NCBI GenBank assembly: GCA_040219515.1
Contig: JAVJSI010000005.1
Coordinates: 271,243 to 335,242 of the forward strand
DNA length: 64,000 bases
Direction: 5' to 3'
DNA from: Acidimicrobiales bacterium
GTDB lineage: Bacteria > Actinomycetota > Acidimicrobiia > Acidimicrobiales > Aldehydirespiratoraceae
Position 1 is the first letter of the stretch; every line of letters starts with the position of its first letter. The notes beneath the pieces were generated by a model that saw only the letters and a list, made by a program, of their open reading frames with translations, did no database searches and was not told where the DNA came from. The translations under genes were made by a program, and so were the position numbers. Shown one piece after another: positions 52,734 to 57,471 of this stretch.

Positions 52734-53870
52734 ATGGTTCCCGTGTCGTCCCCGTTGATCGTCGAGGCGCTGCGCACGCTCGCCCGACCGGGGGAACTCA
52801 CCGACGCCCAGGCCGACGTTGCCGTGGCCCCGCTCAACGGCCCCGAAGCCGACACATTCATCGGGCTCGTGATGACGCACCGCCTGCACGGGGCACTGGC
52901 CGAGGCCTGCCGCGTCGCAGGTCGGTCGGTGGAGGGTCGGGTCGCGGACCGTGTCGACGATGATCGCCTGGTTCGACTGCGGGCGAGCGCCGTGCTCGAT
53001 GCGGCCGCCGAGGTCCTCGATGACTACGACATCCCGTGGCTCGCGTTCAAGGGCCCGGTGGTGGCGTCGTACCTGGCCCGGCCCGAACTACGCGGATTCA
53101 ACGATCTCGATCTCCTCGTGGCCCGGGACCGGTTCGGCGATGCGATCGACGCGCTCGTGTCGATCGGCGGCGAGGAGCTGAACCGGAACTGGGACCCCTA
53201 CGTCACCCACGAGGTGGGCGAGGTCCCGATCGAGGTGGGGACGGTGCCCATCGATCTGCACTGGCACGTGATCGGCCTGGCTCACACCCGCGCCGGGATG
53301 CGCTTCGAACCCGACGCGATGCTCGCCCGCCGTCGCCGGGTCATGGTCGGTGGACGCGAGCTCCCGGTGTTCGACCCGATCGATCAGCTGCTGCACCTCT
53401 GCACGCACGCCGGGCTGAGTGGGGCGACACGACTCGACCAACTCCGCGACGTCGCAGCGCTCGTGCACGGTGGCGAGATCGATTGGGCCGCCTTCGTCGA
53501 ACGTTCACGACACGCTCGGGTCGCCGGTCTGGTCGGCCACACGCTCGACCGTGCCGCCATCGCCGCCGGCGCGCCGGTGGATCCCGTCACACTGCGTGAT
53601 CTCGCCGGCTCCTCGCTGCGGTGGCGACGCCGTGTCGACGGCGATGGTGTGACCGAGCTGCGCCGATCCGGTGTGCACTGGCGACGAGATGACCGCCGCG
53701 GCGCAGCTCGGGTGATCGCGCGGACAGTGGTAGCCATGATGCCGGCGCTCCCCGGTCGCCGCCGCGGTTGGGATTTCTCCGATCCGGACAGCGTGCTCTA
53801 CCACGATCGCCCGAGCGGTGGGGCGGCCCGCCGGCGCGAGTTCCTGCGAATGGTGGAGGATCGCGCCTGA
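52734..53870 (+). CDS. PF14907-type nucleotidyltransferase
   Basis: 378 residues. The nucleotidyltransferase signature is WLAFKGPVVASYLARPELRG followed by FNDLDLLV (DxD near 122-126) and PIDLHWHV. The rest is helical. Enzymes of this uncharacterised family are repeatedly found beside PqqD-like and HPr-kinase-like genes, including lasso-peptide clusters. Start ATG 52734 or GTG 52743. It is divergent from the molybdoenzyme gene. Confidence 0.8.
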   Translation: MVPVSSPLIVEALRTLARPGELTDAQADVAVAPLNGPEADTFIGLVMTHRLHGALAEACRVAGRSVEGRVADRVDDDRLVRLRASAVLDAAAEVLDDYDIPWLAFKGPVVASYLARPELRGFNDLDLLVARDRFGDAIDALVSIGGEELNRNWDPYVTHEVGEVPIEVGTVPIDLHWHVIGLAHTRAGMRFEPDAMLARRRRVMVGGRELPVFDPIDQLLHLCTHAGLSGATRLDQLRDVAALVHGGEIDWAAFVERSRHARVAGLVGHTLDRAAIAAGAPVDPVTLRDLAGSSLRWRRRVDGDGVTELRRSGVHWRRDDRRGAARVIARTVVAMMPALPGRRRGWDFSDPDSVLYHDRPSGGAARRREFLRMVEDRA

Positions 53871-53881
53871 GCCACGACGCG

Positions 53882-53912
53882 CCGCAGGGACGGCGAGTCG
53901 CCGTCCCTGCGG
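53882..53912. terminator. Strong hairpin terminator between nucleotidyltransferase and small peptide gene
   Basis: A 15-base perfect inverted repeat, CCGCAGGGACGGCGA against TCGCCGTCCCTGCGG, separated by one base (so a 13-bp stem with a five-base loop), followed by TTT on the plus strand. It lies between two converging genes and could serve both. Confidence 0.8.
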
Positions 53913-53935
53913 TTTCGAGTACTACTGAGGCTAGA

Positions 53936-54031
53936 TCAGCGGCCGCTACCGCGACGCTTCGGCGGGCGCTTGCGCTTGAGGGACCCCTCGAGGTCGACTT
54001 GGCTCTGGATCTGGGGCTTTCCGTACTTCAT
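53936..54031 (-). CDS. 31-residue basic peptide, candidate RiPP precursor with lasso-type leader motif
   Basis: ATG at 54031 with GAGAGG eight bases upstream; TGA at 53936-53938. The N-terminal MKYGKPQIQSQVDLEGSL contains Tyr3-x-x-Pro6-x-Ile8, the pattern by which lasso-peptide leaders are held by PqqD-like B1 proteins, followed by a V-x-x-EG-x-L stretch. The C-terminal 13 residues are nearly all Lys/Arg/Pro/Gly and end RGSGR, with a Ser that could be phosphorylated. It lies 92 bases after the S24/S26-like peptidase on the same strand. No hydrophobic signal peptide. Precursor status is inference from motif and context. Confidence 0.6.
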   Translation of the reverse strand: MKYGKPQIQSQVDLEGSLKRKRPPKRRGSGR

Positions 54032-54123
54032 GTTCCAACCTCTCGTAATTCTGATGTGACTGGCAGATTAACACGGCGCCACTCTCCGTGGGGGAATCAG
54101 CGGCAAATGATTCGGGCGACCCA

Positions 54124-54594
54124 TCACGTGTCTTTCGGGTTTCTGTCGGGGCGTCGACGGCGAGACGCGACGGCCAGCAGTCGCCGGACTCGGCGACGTG
54201 TGCGCAGCGTGACGGCGGCACGGACTCGGTCGACGGATCCGAAGCGACGGCGCTGACCGGACCAGTGGGATTCGACGACCCGGCCGACCAGTCGCGAGGC
54301 GGGAACGGGATCGTCGTCGACCCGGTTGCCCGTGCCGCGCGCGGTCACCGAAGAACCGTCGTACTCGCGGACCCGATGTACGACCACACCACCGTCGTCG
54401 TCGACGAATGCCCAGATCTCCCCGCAGCGCGGGTGGGTGGCGGGGCTGAGCACCACGGTCGACCCGGACGCGATCACGCCCGACATGCTCGTGCCGGCGA
54501 CCGGAATCTCGACGGCCGCGTGCGACAGCCGCCGTCGAAGGAGCGCGGCAATGGCGTCGGGTTCGGTTGTCGACGCGTGATCGCTCTCCACCAT
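54124..54594 (-). CDS. Soluble S24/S26-like (SipW/ER-type) peptidase
   Basis: 156 residues with no membrane segment. The catalytic Ser36 is in VAGTSMSGVI. The general base is His73 in VVVHRVREYDG rather than Lys, as in SipW/ER-type signal peptidases. An Asp cluster (93-95) follows in ARGTGNRVDDDPV, where the family often has GDxNxxxD. Since the protein is cytosolic, a role in cutting a leader peptide or as a small-peptide protease is plausible. ATG 54594. It is followed by the 31-residue peptide gene. Confidence 0.72.
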   Translation of the reverse strand: MVESDHASTTEPDAIAALLRRRLSHAAVEIPVAGTSMSGVIASGSTVVLSPATHPRCGEIWAFVDDDGGVVVHRVREYDGSSVTARGTGNRVDDDPVPASRLVGRVVESHWSGQRRRFGSVDRVRAAVTLRTRRRVRRLLAVASRRRRPDRNPKDT

Positions 54595-54689
54595 CGGGGG
54601 GACGGTACCGCGACGGCGTCCCCGCGTCCGACGCCGCCATCGGCTTTCATTGGCGCGATGCACCCGCCGACCCGACCCATCCCCGACGC

Positions 54690-55598
54690 ATGATCGAGTC
54701 GGTCCTCGACGTTGGTGGCGTCGCGGTGAGAGTGGTTGCGGAGAGCCGTGGCTACGCAGACTGCGCGGCGGCCCGACTCGGCTCCGTCCCGAGCACCGCG
54801 ACGCCCGAGGTCGAGGTCTGGCTCGGCGGCGACGTGCCCGACATCCCCGACGACTCGACCGAACAGGAGATGGACGGGTTTCTCGGTTGGGAGTCCGACG
54901 ACGGACTCTGGATCGGACGGCCCGGGGCTCGAGCCGCCATCGACGACACCTCCGTGAGGGTCGGTGGGCCGATCGATGCCCCCGGCCCACTCGACCTCTT
55001 CGACGATCTGTTGCAGTTCGGGATCTCGATCGGCATCGCCCGGCCCGACCGGCTCATGATGCATGCCGCCGTGGTGGCCCAGGGGGACGAGGCCTTGTTG
55101 TTGGTCGGTGAGAGCGGTCGGGGAAAGTCGACCCTCAGCGCGGCGGCCCTGGTGGGCGGATGGGACCTGCTCGGCGATGATCTCGCCGTGATCGACACCC
55201 GACAGATGATGGCCCGCGGGGTGGCACGGCGACCGATGGTGCCCGCGTCCCTTGCCACCGCACACGGCCTCATCGGTGAGGCCGAGGACGGTCCGCGAAA
55301 TCGGGTCCGCTTGGCGGTCGACACGCTGGCCCCGGGAGCTCGACGACTCGTCGGCATCGTCACCGTCGACCACGGCGTCGACGGGCACATCGACGCACTC
55401 GGCCCGGGCGATCTCTCGGTGCTCGACGACGGCTACGCGGCGCCGCCCTTCCGGCGGGCGCTTCGACGCCAGCTCGCGGCGAGCGCGGCGCTGGTCGCAT
55501 TGCCCGCCGTGCGCCTCGCCCACGCTCGTGACGAGACCGTTCGTGTCGCCCGAGCGCAGGAACTGCTGCTCGAGGCGTTGCAGCTCTGTCGCTCGTAG
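54690..55598 (+). CDS. HPr-kinase-like protein
   Basis: 302 residues resembling the C-terminal kinase domain of HPr(Ser) kinase, without the usual N-terminal domain. Walker A GESGRGKSTLSAAALV near 139-154 is followed by GWDLLGDDLAVID, typical of this group (Asp pair for metal). ATG 54690 is chosen; a GTG at 54567 would overlap the divergent peptidase gene. Homologues in some lasso clusters phosphorylate the precursor's C-terminal Ser. The present gene may do this on the nearby peptide (inference). Confidence 0.78.
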   Translation: MIESVLDVGGVAVRVVAESRGYADCAAARLGSVPSTATPEVEVWLGGDVPDIPDDSTEQEMDGFLGWESDDGLWIGRPGARAAIDDTSVRVGGPIDAPGPLDLFDDLLQFGISIGIARPDRLMMHAAVVAQGDEALLLVGESGRGKSTLSAAALVGGWDLLGDDLAVIDTRQMMARGVARRPMVPASLATAHGLIGEAEDGPRNRVRLAVDTLAPGARRLVGIVTVDHGVDGHIDALGPGDLSVLDDGYAAPPFRRALRRQLAASAALVALPAVRLAHARDETVRVARAQELLLEALQLCRS

Positions 55599-55608
55599 GA
55601 CTGGCTGA

Positions 55609-56418
55609 TCAGTAGGTGCCGAGCGTGCCGGCCCGCTGCGCCACGCCGACCGCCGACCGGAAGGCCAGCATCGACAGGGGGAGCACGACCACGACGAAGG
55701 CGAGAAGCACTCCCATCTCACCGACCACATCGGTCAGGCCCGCCTCGGTCTGCACGACCGCCCGAGTGGCCCGGACGCCGTAGGTGGCCGGCACCACGCG
55801 GGTGACGACCTCGAGCCAACCGGGGAGCACCGAGAGGGGATACAGGGCACCCGACAGCAGGAGCGTGAGCTGCTGGGCCGGCCCGCTGAACGGGTCACCC
55901 CGCTTCACCAGGATGATGAACGCGGCGGAGATCACGCCGAACGGGACGAACGACAACGCGACGAGGAACAGGATGGGTGCGGCCTGCACCATGCCCAGGA
56001 TGGGGATTCCCGCGCCGAACAGCCCCAGACCCACGAGAACGAGGAGCGCGGTCTCGGCGATCACGAAGACGAAGGCGACGGCGTGGCTCGCCACGAGCAC
56101 CGTCCAGATCGGTGTCGGTGTCGTGAGGACGGCCTCGAGCGTGCCTTCGTTCTGTTCCTCGCTGATCTGCTCGGGGAAGCTCGACATGCCGACGGCGGCC
56201 CAACTGGTGACGATCGAACCGATGAGCGCGAACTCGAAGTAGCCGCCGCGGAACTGGCTTATCGACTCCGGATCACCCACGAATTCCGAGATGAAGTAGA
56301 AGCTCACGGCGAAATAGCCGATGTGCAGCACCCGCATCATGAGATCGACCCGGTACGAGGTGAGGGTCGTCAACTCCTTGCGGACCACCGCGGCCATGCG
56401 CCGCCGGTTGGCGCTCAT
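55609..56418 (-). CDS. ABC-2 type permease
   Basis: 269 residues with six predicted membrane helices, beginning RMAAVVRKELTTLTSYRVDL, a typical ABC-2 N-terminus. FPEQISEEQNEGTLEAVLTTP is the coupling region. Overlaps the ATPase gene (ATGA) at its start. Its stop is ten bases from the convergent HPr-kinase-like gene. Likely exporter of a peptide, lipid or drug. Confidence 0.88.
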   Translation of the reverse strand: MSANRRRMAAVVRKELTTLTSYRVDLMMRVLHIGYFAVSFYFISEFVGDPESISQFRGGYFEFALIGSIVTSWAAVGMSSFPEQISEEQNEGTLEAVLTTPTPIWTVLVASHAVAFVFVIAETALLVLVGLGLFGAGIPILGMVQAAPILFLVALSFVPFGVISAAFIILVKRGDPFSGPAQQLTLLLSGALYPLSVLPGWLEVVTRVVPATYGVRATRAVVQTEAGLTDVVGEMGVLLAFVVVVLPLSMLAFRSAVGVAQRAGTLGTY

Positions 56419-57203
56419 GCGTCGTCTCGATCCTCGTCGGCGGCGGTATCGGCCACGAGGGACTCCAGCCGAGCGCCCAGTCCGCCGGGGTCGTCGGCGA
56501 TCTCCTCGGCCGATCCCTCCCACAGGATGCGGCCGTTGATCAACGCGACCGCCCGGTCGCAGGCGAGAACCACTTCGTCGAGGCGGTGGCTGGCCATCAG
56601 CACTGCCCGGCCCTCCCCGGCGAGGCCACGTATCTGATGACAGAGCCGGCGTCCGGCGATCGGGTCGAGGCTGCGCGTGGGTTCGTCGAGGACGATGAGG
56701 GGAGGGTCGTGCAGCGTGGCTCGGGCGATGCCGAGCTGGGCGAGCATGCCCGACGAATACCCGAACACGGCCTTGTCGCGGTGGGCGAGGCCGTGGTCGA
56801 CCATGGCCTGCTCGACGCGCTCCTCGCCGGCCGCGGCATCGAGTCCGGCCATGGCTGCGAAGTAACGCAGGTTCTGTCGCCCGGTGAGCCGCCAGTAGAA
56901 CGAACGCTCGTTGGGCAACGAGAGGCCGAACTTCGCCCGGACCTCGCGATTGTCGCCGGTGACGCGGACGCCGTCGATGTCGACGGTGCCGGCAGTGGGG
57001 ACGAGGAGCGCGGTGATCGATCGGATCAGCGTGGACTTCCCGGCGCCGTTGGGTCCGATGATGCCGACGACCTCGCCGGCCTCGACTCGGAGGTCGACGC
57101 CGTCGAGGGCGACCACCGGTTCCGGCGAGGCCGAGCGGACCAGCAGACCGAGCAGGCCCGTGGCCGGCTGATAGGTCATGCGCAGGCCGTCGACGACGAG
57201 CAT
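56415..57203 (-). CDS. ABC exporter ATP-binding protein
   Basis: 262 residues of the drug/polysaccharide exporter type. Walker A GPNGAGKST at 50-58, a variant signature GYSSGMLAQLGIARATL, and Walker B LIVLDEPTRSLD. ATG 57203 lies four bases after the PqqD-like stop, so PqqD-like protein, ATPase and permease are one operon. Confidence 0.92.
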   Translation of the reverse strand: MLVVDGLRMTYQPATGLLGLLVRSASPEPVVALDGVDLRVEAGEVVGIIGPNGAGKSTLIRSITALLVPTAGTVDIDGVRVTGDNREVRAKFGLSLPNERSFYWRLTGRQNLRYFAAMAGLDAAAGEERVEQAMVDHGLAHRDKAVFGYSSGMLAQLGIARATLHDPPLIVLDEPTRSLDPIAGRRLCHQIRGLAGEGRAVLMASHRLDEVVLACDRAVALINGRILWEGSAEEIADDPGGLGARLESLVADTAADEDRDDA

Positions 57204-57207
57204 GTCG

Positions 57208-57471
57208 TCAGCTGATGTCGACGAGGTCAGCGGCGGCGAGGTCCTCGATGAAGTCGGCGATGTCGCGCTCGAGCTCGTCGACCGCGACGTCCTCGAATTG
57301 GGTGACGAGGTCCTGGGCCAGGGCCGACGCGTCCCGCTCGCCGTCGAGGGCCTGCCAGATCAGCGAGCCCACGGGGTTGAGCGTGGTCATCTCGGTGCCG
57401 TCGGCGTTGAGGATCACCACGGAGTCGCCGCTCGGCTCGAAGCTGACTCCTGTGCGTCGTCGGGTAGCCAT
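57208..57471 (-). CDS. PqqD-like protein (RiPP recognition element)
   Basis: 87 residues with the PqqD fold pattern: VSFEPSGDSVVILNADG, MTTLNPVGSLIWQALDGE, then helices DELERDIADFIEDLAAADLV. PqqD-like proteins are winged-helix domains that hold leader peptides for modifying enzymes. It is first in an operon with the ABC exporter. With the basic peptide, peptidase, kinase and nucleotidyltransferase within 5 kb, it suggests a peptide-modification system. Confidence 0.85.
   Translation of the reverse strand: MATRRRTGVSFEPSGDSVVILNADGTEMTTLNPVGSLIWQALDGERDASALAQDLVTQFEDVAVDELERDIADFIEDLAAADLVDIS

Follow-up and report, generated by a model that had tools for sequence, protein, structure and literature searches.

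A candidate cyclase-free RiPP locus with a signal-peptidase-like protease in an Acidimicrobiales genome

Gene content of the locus

The window analyzed here, a 64-kb stretch of DNA, is part of contig 5 (JAVJSI010000005.1) of the 4.02-Mb genome of an Acidimicrobiales bacterium (GCA_040219515.1). Within it, six neighboring proteins and a 31-residue peptide make up a candidate pathway for a ribosomally synthesized and post-translationally modified peptide (RiPP). These are a nucleotidyltransferase-like protein of family PF14907, the peptide, a protease of the S24/S26 type, an HprK-like kinase, the permease and ATPase of an ATP-binding cassette (ABC) exporter and a PqqD-like RiPP recognition element (RRE) (Table 1). 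The six proteins were assigned by matching Pfam and NCBIfam profiles to the open reading frames (ORFs) of the window. All of the genes named in a preliminary description of this DNA proved to be present as claimed, by profile matches and, for the two weak calls, the kinase and the protease, by their predicted folds. As argued below, we consider it likely that the locus encodes a divergent actinobacterial RiPP pathway that works like the one for the linear polyphosphorylated peptides (LPPs; proteins LppA, LppK, LppB, LppS, LppD, and LppN) described in Bacillota (Popov et al., 2026; PMC13381572).

Two gene starts given earlier were corrected: that of the kinase is best placed at the ATG at 54690, and that of the permease at 56418, where it overlaps the end of the ATPase gene.

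Table 1. Features of the candidate RiPP locus (window coordinates), with related arrangements in other loci (coordinates of the locus named).
Feature	Position	Strand	Basis
PF14907 nucleotidyltransferase-like protein (LppN/PsmN-like)	52734..53870	+	PF14907 E 2.7e-31; same-slot orthologs
14-bp hairpin, probable terminator	53882..53912		between convergent peptide and nucleotidyltransferase-like genes
Precursor peptide, 31 aa, MKYGKPQIQSQVDLEG followed by SLKRKRPPKRRGSGR	53936..54031	-	conserved family
Predicted leader MKYGKPQIQSQVDLEG, residues 1-16, LEG end	53984..54031	-	invariant residues; cut site by analogy
Predicted core SLKRKRPPKRRGSGR, candidate phospho-acceptor Ser29 (RGSG)	53939..53983	-	Gly-Ser enrichment in cores
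Putative leader peptidase, type I signal peptidase (SpI)-like (archaeal signal-peptidase type, S24/S26 fold), Ser36/His73/Asp94	54124..54594	-	TIGR02228, invariant triad, predicted fold
HprK-like kinase, His125-Lys146-Asp163-Asp164	54690..55598	+	HprK_rel_A, invariant residues, predicted PEPCK/HprK fold
Exporter, ABC-2 permease	55609..56418	-	PF01061 E 1.6e-13; DrrB-like, under NCBIfam cut-off
Exporter, ABC ATPase (DrrA-like)	56415..57203	-	PF00005 E 1.5e-26; TIGR01188 168 bits, under cut-off
PqqD-like discrete RRE	57208..57471	-	PF05402 62.6 bits
Apparent PF14907-protease gene fusion	L069 8809-10455; L070 4592-7075		one open frame
Loci of the branch without clear HprK	L065 8446-11679; L066 5855-10949; L067 321-4696		

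The precursor peptide family

The 31-residue ORF is a real gene belonging to a conserved family of precursor peptides and not a chance reading frame. Among 12 aligned peptides, the residues M, Y, P, V, L, E, G, and L are invariant within the first 18 positions, the leader of the window peptide having the pattern YxxPxI...LEG, and a variable stretch follows which leads to Gly-Ser in all 12. The peptide is encoded between the protease and PF14907 genes, in one or two copies, in all seven loci of family f1 that span this site. For two peptide pairs from genomes G034 and G035, the codons of the leader differ by four synonymous and no non-synonymous changes, versus six synonymous and ten non-synonymous changes in the core. 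A peptide search at E 0.1 gave matches in 7 of 51 genomes of the family, our own included, and missed genome G032, though the latter holds the cassette and peptides. One weak match, in G002, was taken as chance because no cassette gene surrounds it.

To count precursors more widely we used a pattern consisting of a Shine-Dalgarno sequence, Y..P.[hydrophobic] and then [LV].G. It matched 41 times in 618,788 bases (40 sequences), once in the window, and had no match in the 230,072 bases of 15 loci lacking the cassette; since these same peptides had in part served to design the pattern, this count is no independent test. From these matches one overlapping ORF of 113 residues in locus L079 was dropped and a peptide of L053, whose Shine-Dalgarno sequence is weak, was added, giving 41 precursors. 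Ser is present in 40 of the 41 cores and Gly-Ser in 31, against 9.3 expected when each core was shuffled, an enrichment that overstates the independence of the peptides because they are kin. Some precursors (L079, L093) contain two leader-core repeats, and in one genus precursors occur in arrays of two to eight.

Based on analogy with residues F-3, E-2, and T-1 of LppA, cleavage is predicted to follow LEG, and Ser29 of the core, in the motif RGSG, is a candidate phosphosite. The preliminary description had also foreseen a cationic product. However, strong basic charge is limited to the peptides of some relatives. Several relatives have cores without strong basicity, for which reason a cationic antimicrobial was rejected as the general product of the family; the trait is confined to certain species.

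The hairpin that lies 3' of the peptide gene is probably a terminator; its folding energy is -34.4 kcal/mol over 65 nt (z -4.28) and none of 200 shuffled sequences folded as well. Upstream of the peptide genes in five f1 genomes we observed a 12-bp element, [CT]ACTC[TG][CG]CGTGG, possibly part of a promoter or operator, which lies at 54080-54091 of the window (reverse orientation) and in L030, L031, L032, and L036, and was not found in L033, L035, or L053.

Conservation and distribution of the cassette

Whether relatives share the peptide and its neighborhood was a point that the preliminary description had left to be checked, and both are conserved. All six protein genes and the precursor were identified in 9 of 26 loci, of which six belong to family f1, two to f20, and one to f115, a family outside the class of the window; the remaining loci have partial sets, some owing to contig ends. 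The six proteins of the f20 and f115 loci align directly with those of the window at E 1e-11 or better. The genes that flank the cassette in f1, which from their translations we take to be RsgA and an AMP-ligase, were not found in the f20 and f115 loci, save for a short match to RsgA that falls on the ABC ATPase. These findings make it very unlikely that the cassette is a set of unrelated housekeeping or regulatory genes, chance neighbors that were co-inherited in one family. Such an origin would fit the synteny of the flanking genes within f1, as well as the several transcription units; however, the six genes and the peptide are together again in f20 and f115 without the f1 flanking genes, and partial sets recur in more families.

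Searched alone, the peptide profile found relatives in at least 2 of 298 genomes of the order, our own included (about 26 candidates were scored in most genomes), and because of this low yield the distribution was traced with the protease. The protease-profile searches scored about 10 candidates per genome and their counts are therefore lower bounds: relatives were present in at least 11 of 395 sampled genomes of the class (our own included) and at least 6 of 396 sampled genomes of the phylum (counting our own and G069, and with two weak matches among the six). The same profile had no match on plasmids. A named-collection scan gave six loci, from metagenome-assembled genomes labeled Acidimicrobiia, Acidimicrobiales, or "Actinomycetes".

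Two further arrangements were observed. In the distant genome G968 a precursor-like ORF accompanies a weak SpI-like protease and a weak RRE (L094 7626-10851), so this kind of system may reach further. In G053 a lasso-like precursor lies close to PF14907-like and HprK-like genes (L045 8604-8732).

Enzymes, recognition element and exporter

The HprK and S24/S26 calls are weak by sequence and are supported by the predicted structures. The kinase scored 57.3 bits with HprK_rel_A (cut-off 200), while its model (predicted local distance difference test, pLDDT, 94.5) has the fold of phosphoenolpyruvate carboxykinase (PEPCK) and HPr kinase, with a PEPCK Z of 16.2 over 268 residues. Its His-Lys-Asp-Asp residues, counterparts of which are reported to be necessary in lasso peptide kinases (PMC9266682), are invariant in eight orthologs. 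The protease scored 21.9 bits with PF00717 (cut-off 23.3) and 32.5 bits with TIGR02228 (cut-off 51.85), and its model (pLDDT 84.6) resembles LexA C-terminal domains and type I signal peptidases, with modest best Z values of 7.9 and 7.8, respectively. The Ser, His, and Asp residues are invariant across 16 aligned protease relatives, seven of which match TIGR02228 at E 0.001. In two genomes, G359 and G371, PF14907 and SpI-like protease domains are found in a single open frame (Pfam was run on G359 only), which suggests that the two proteins share a pathway.

The PF14907 protein has the motifs NDLDLLV and DLHWH, and its orthologs occupy the same slot. The RRE matched PqqD (PF05402) at E 4.4e-17, and the RRE profile matched TbiB1 (E 8e-6) and LppB (9x8z; E 4.7e-5). 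Asn32, Asp70, and Phe74 of the window RRE align with N33, D70, and F74 of LppB; LppB shares "Leu-Asn" at the N33 position with all 15 aligned RREs, and PbaB1 and TbiB1 lack it, in a comparison that left out the RREs of L092 and L094. Elsewhere in our genome, contigs 9 and 10 also have PqqD matches, both in loci without protease or precursor, the former contig having a weak HprK-like match and the latter a PF14907 protein. The exporter is a two-gene pump of the ABC-2/DrrAB type, whose ATPase and permease are both above the Pfam cut-off.

These gene types, and a leader that resembles lasso leaders, led us to consider a lasso peptide served in trans by a cyclase and a B2 leader peptidase encoded at some other place in the genome: the kinase and PF14907 types are lasso tailoring enzymes, and there is one weak match to the cyclase family PF00733 elsewhere in the genome. 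That match, the only one, is located outside the window and spans 64 of 354 positions, and at E 1e-6 the B2 peptidase (PF13471) had no match anywhere in the genome; 17 of the 18 cassette genomes, our own included, likewise have none. Closure of a lasso ring uses Asp or Glu at about core position 7-9, and because the predicted core of the window has neither residue, such a ring is impossible. On the basis of these three points a lasso peptide made in trans was rejected; we regard it as extremely unlikely.

Proposed pathway

We propose that the PqqD-like RRE would bind the 31-residue precursor by its Y-x-x-P leader, after which the HprK-like kinase would add one or more phosphates to the core Ser in RGSG. 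With the RRE as its guide, the signal-peptidase-like protease would then cut after Leu-Glu-Gly in the cytosol, and the PF14907 protein may decorate the phosphate with a sugar or nucleotide. The linear product would presumably be exported by the ABC-2 pump of the DrrAB type, whose genes share an operon with that of the RRE. An S24/S26-like peptidase acting in place of B2 and a linear phosphorylated product, both suggested in the preliminary description, fit the lack of a B2 match in the genome and agree with what was demonstrated for the LPPs of Bacillota (PMC13381572). Its further suggestion of a nucleotidylated product found no support, since deletion of lppN is reported to have caused no detectable change in an LPP host (PMC13381572) and knock-outs tie the lasso homolog PsmN to hexoses on phosphoserine (PMC9266682).

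Several observations weigh against this proposal. In the window the cassette genes are divided among three or more transcription units, and in several genomes the kinase or PF14907 gene is located elsewhere, on another contig or at another place. Many of the loci come from draft or metagenome assemblies and 3 of the 26 are under 5 kb. In a FastTree analysis of 19 RRE domains, a short alignment with a single LPP sequence, LppB was placed beside two lasso RREs (0.86). Outside f1, the HprK profile matched 6 of 10 genomes at E 1e-6, and in the three genomes of genus g236 Ser is kept in 17 of 17 precursors without an HprK match at that threshold. Conversely, the core of L071 (G297) contains neither Ser nor Thr, yet the kinase there keeps H, K, D, and D. 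The L071 core and the g236 precursors together argue against the simple view that the Ser serves HprK.

The same two observations favor an alternative in which the RRE and protease pathway is as proposed, but the HprK-like protein does not phosphorylate the Ser, acting instead on another substrate or in regulation, and the peptide is otherwise modified or unmodified. We consider this alternative unlikely based on the presence of the kinase gene in all nine full-set loci, the invariance of H, K, D, and D in the eight orthologs, and reports of Ser phosphorylation by homologous kinases in the precursors of lasso peptides and LPPs, at core Ser3 in the case of LppK (PMC9266682; PMC13381572). An LPP-like pathway with a phosphorylated Ser is, in our estimation, still the probable function of the locus.

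The loci without a clear HprK have features of their own. In this genus a LytR-CpsA-Psr gene, an RRE, and an SpI-like protease lie on one strand and are followed by two to eight small precursors (Table 1). Gly-Ser is situated between two Cys in 10 of the 17 g236 precursors, and one g236 genome, G510, has a partial HprK match of 20.5 bits near its PF14907 gene. We can imagine, as a rather improbable speculation, that SpI-processed linear RiPPs are an old and diverse kind in Actinomycetota whose branches share the RRE, the signal-peptidase-like protease, and the core Ser, and differ in how Ser-phosphate-X is made: by HprK and PF14907, or, in the array branch without clear HprK, by a LytR-CpsA-Psr phosphotransferase that would attach cell-wall glycan directly. 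If this were true, the products would be cell-surface-linked phosphopeptides and not free antibiotics.

An LPP-like function would extend to Actinomycetota a RiPP class that was described only recently and is said to occur in Bacillota alone (PMC13381572). The short precursor with its clear candidate phosphosite, along with the arrays and repeat precursors, invites a mass-spectrometric search. In addition, comparing branches that have a clear kinase with those that do not, and branches that have the Ser with those that lack it, makes the purpose of LPPs and the role of PF14907 testable questions.

Comparison with known systems

The pairing of an HprK-like kinase with a PqqD-like partner recalls the HprK_rel_A system (NCBIfam TIGR04352/TIGR04353), although the window proteins are below the curated cut-offs (57.3 versus 200 and 18.6 versus 35 bits). 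Lasso peptides of the paeninodin/pseudomycoidin type (PMC9266682) share with the window an HprK-like kinase, shown there to act on the precursor Ser, a nucleotidyltransferase-like tailoring protein, and a [Y/W]xxP leader which in those systems is bound by a discrete RRE. Unlike them, the window locus has no cyclase gene, its genome has no B2 match, and its core has no Asp/Glu acceptor.

The closest likeness is to the LPPs; besides that system (PMC13381572), no second SpI-type LPP system was found in the literature searched. Like the LPP loci, the window has a discrete RRE, an HprK-like kinase, a nucleotidyltransferase-like protein, and an exporter, and it has no cyclase or B2. Its SpI-like peptidase has the Ser/His/Asp residues of LppS (S29, H68, D93), which is described as cutting after F-E-T with the aid of the RRE LppB (PMC13381572). 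The precursors of both are short, with a YxxPx[V/I] leader that ends in a hydrophobic residue at -3, Glu at -2, and a small residue at -1 (LEG in the window, FET in LPPs). These elements are all that is shared with the full LPP leader motif, YxxPxVLxHQxIxFETxxS (PMC13381572), as the window leader has no HQxIxFET. The candidate Ser in our family is mostly distal to the predicted cut after LEG, whereas that of LPPs is at +3 from the cut after FET. In addition, the exporter is of the ABC-2 DrrAB type, while the conserved LPP set includes MsbA-like transporters, LppD being the export pump (PMC13381572). LPPs often adjoin capsule loci, whereas no capsule gene is among the neighbors read here; the RREs do not group specifically with LppB in our weakly resolved tree; and the host belongs to Actinomycetota and not Bacillota. 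Because of the leader-motif and exporter mismatches and the RRE tree, we do not file the locus as a strict member of the LPPs and regard it as a probable variant that works like them.

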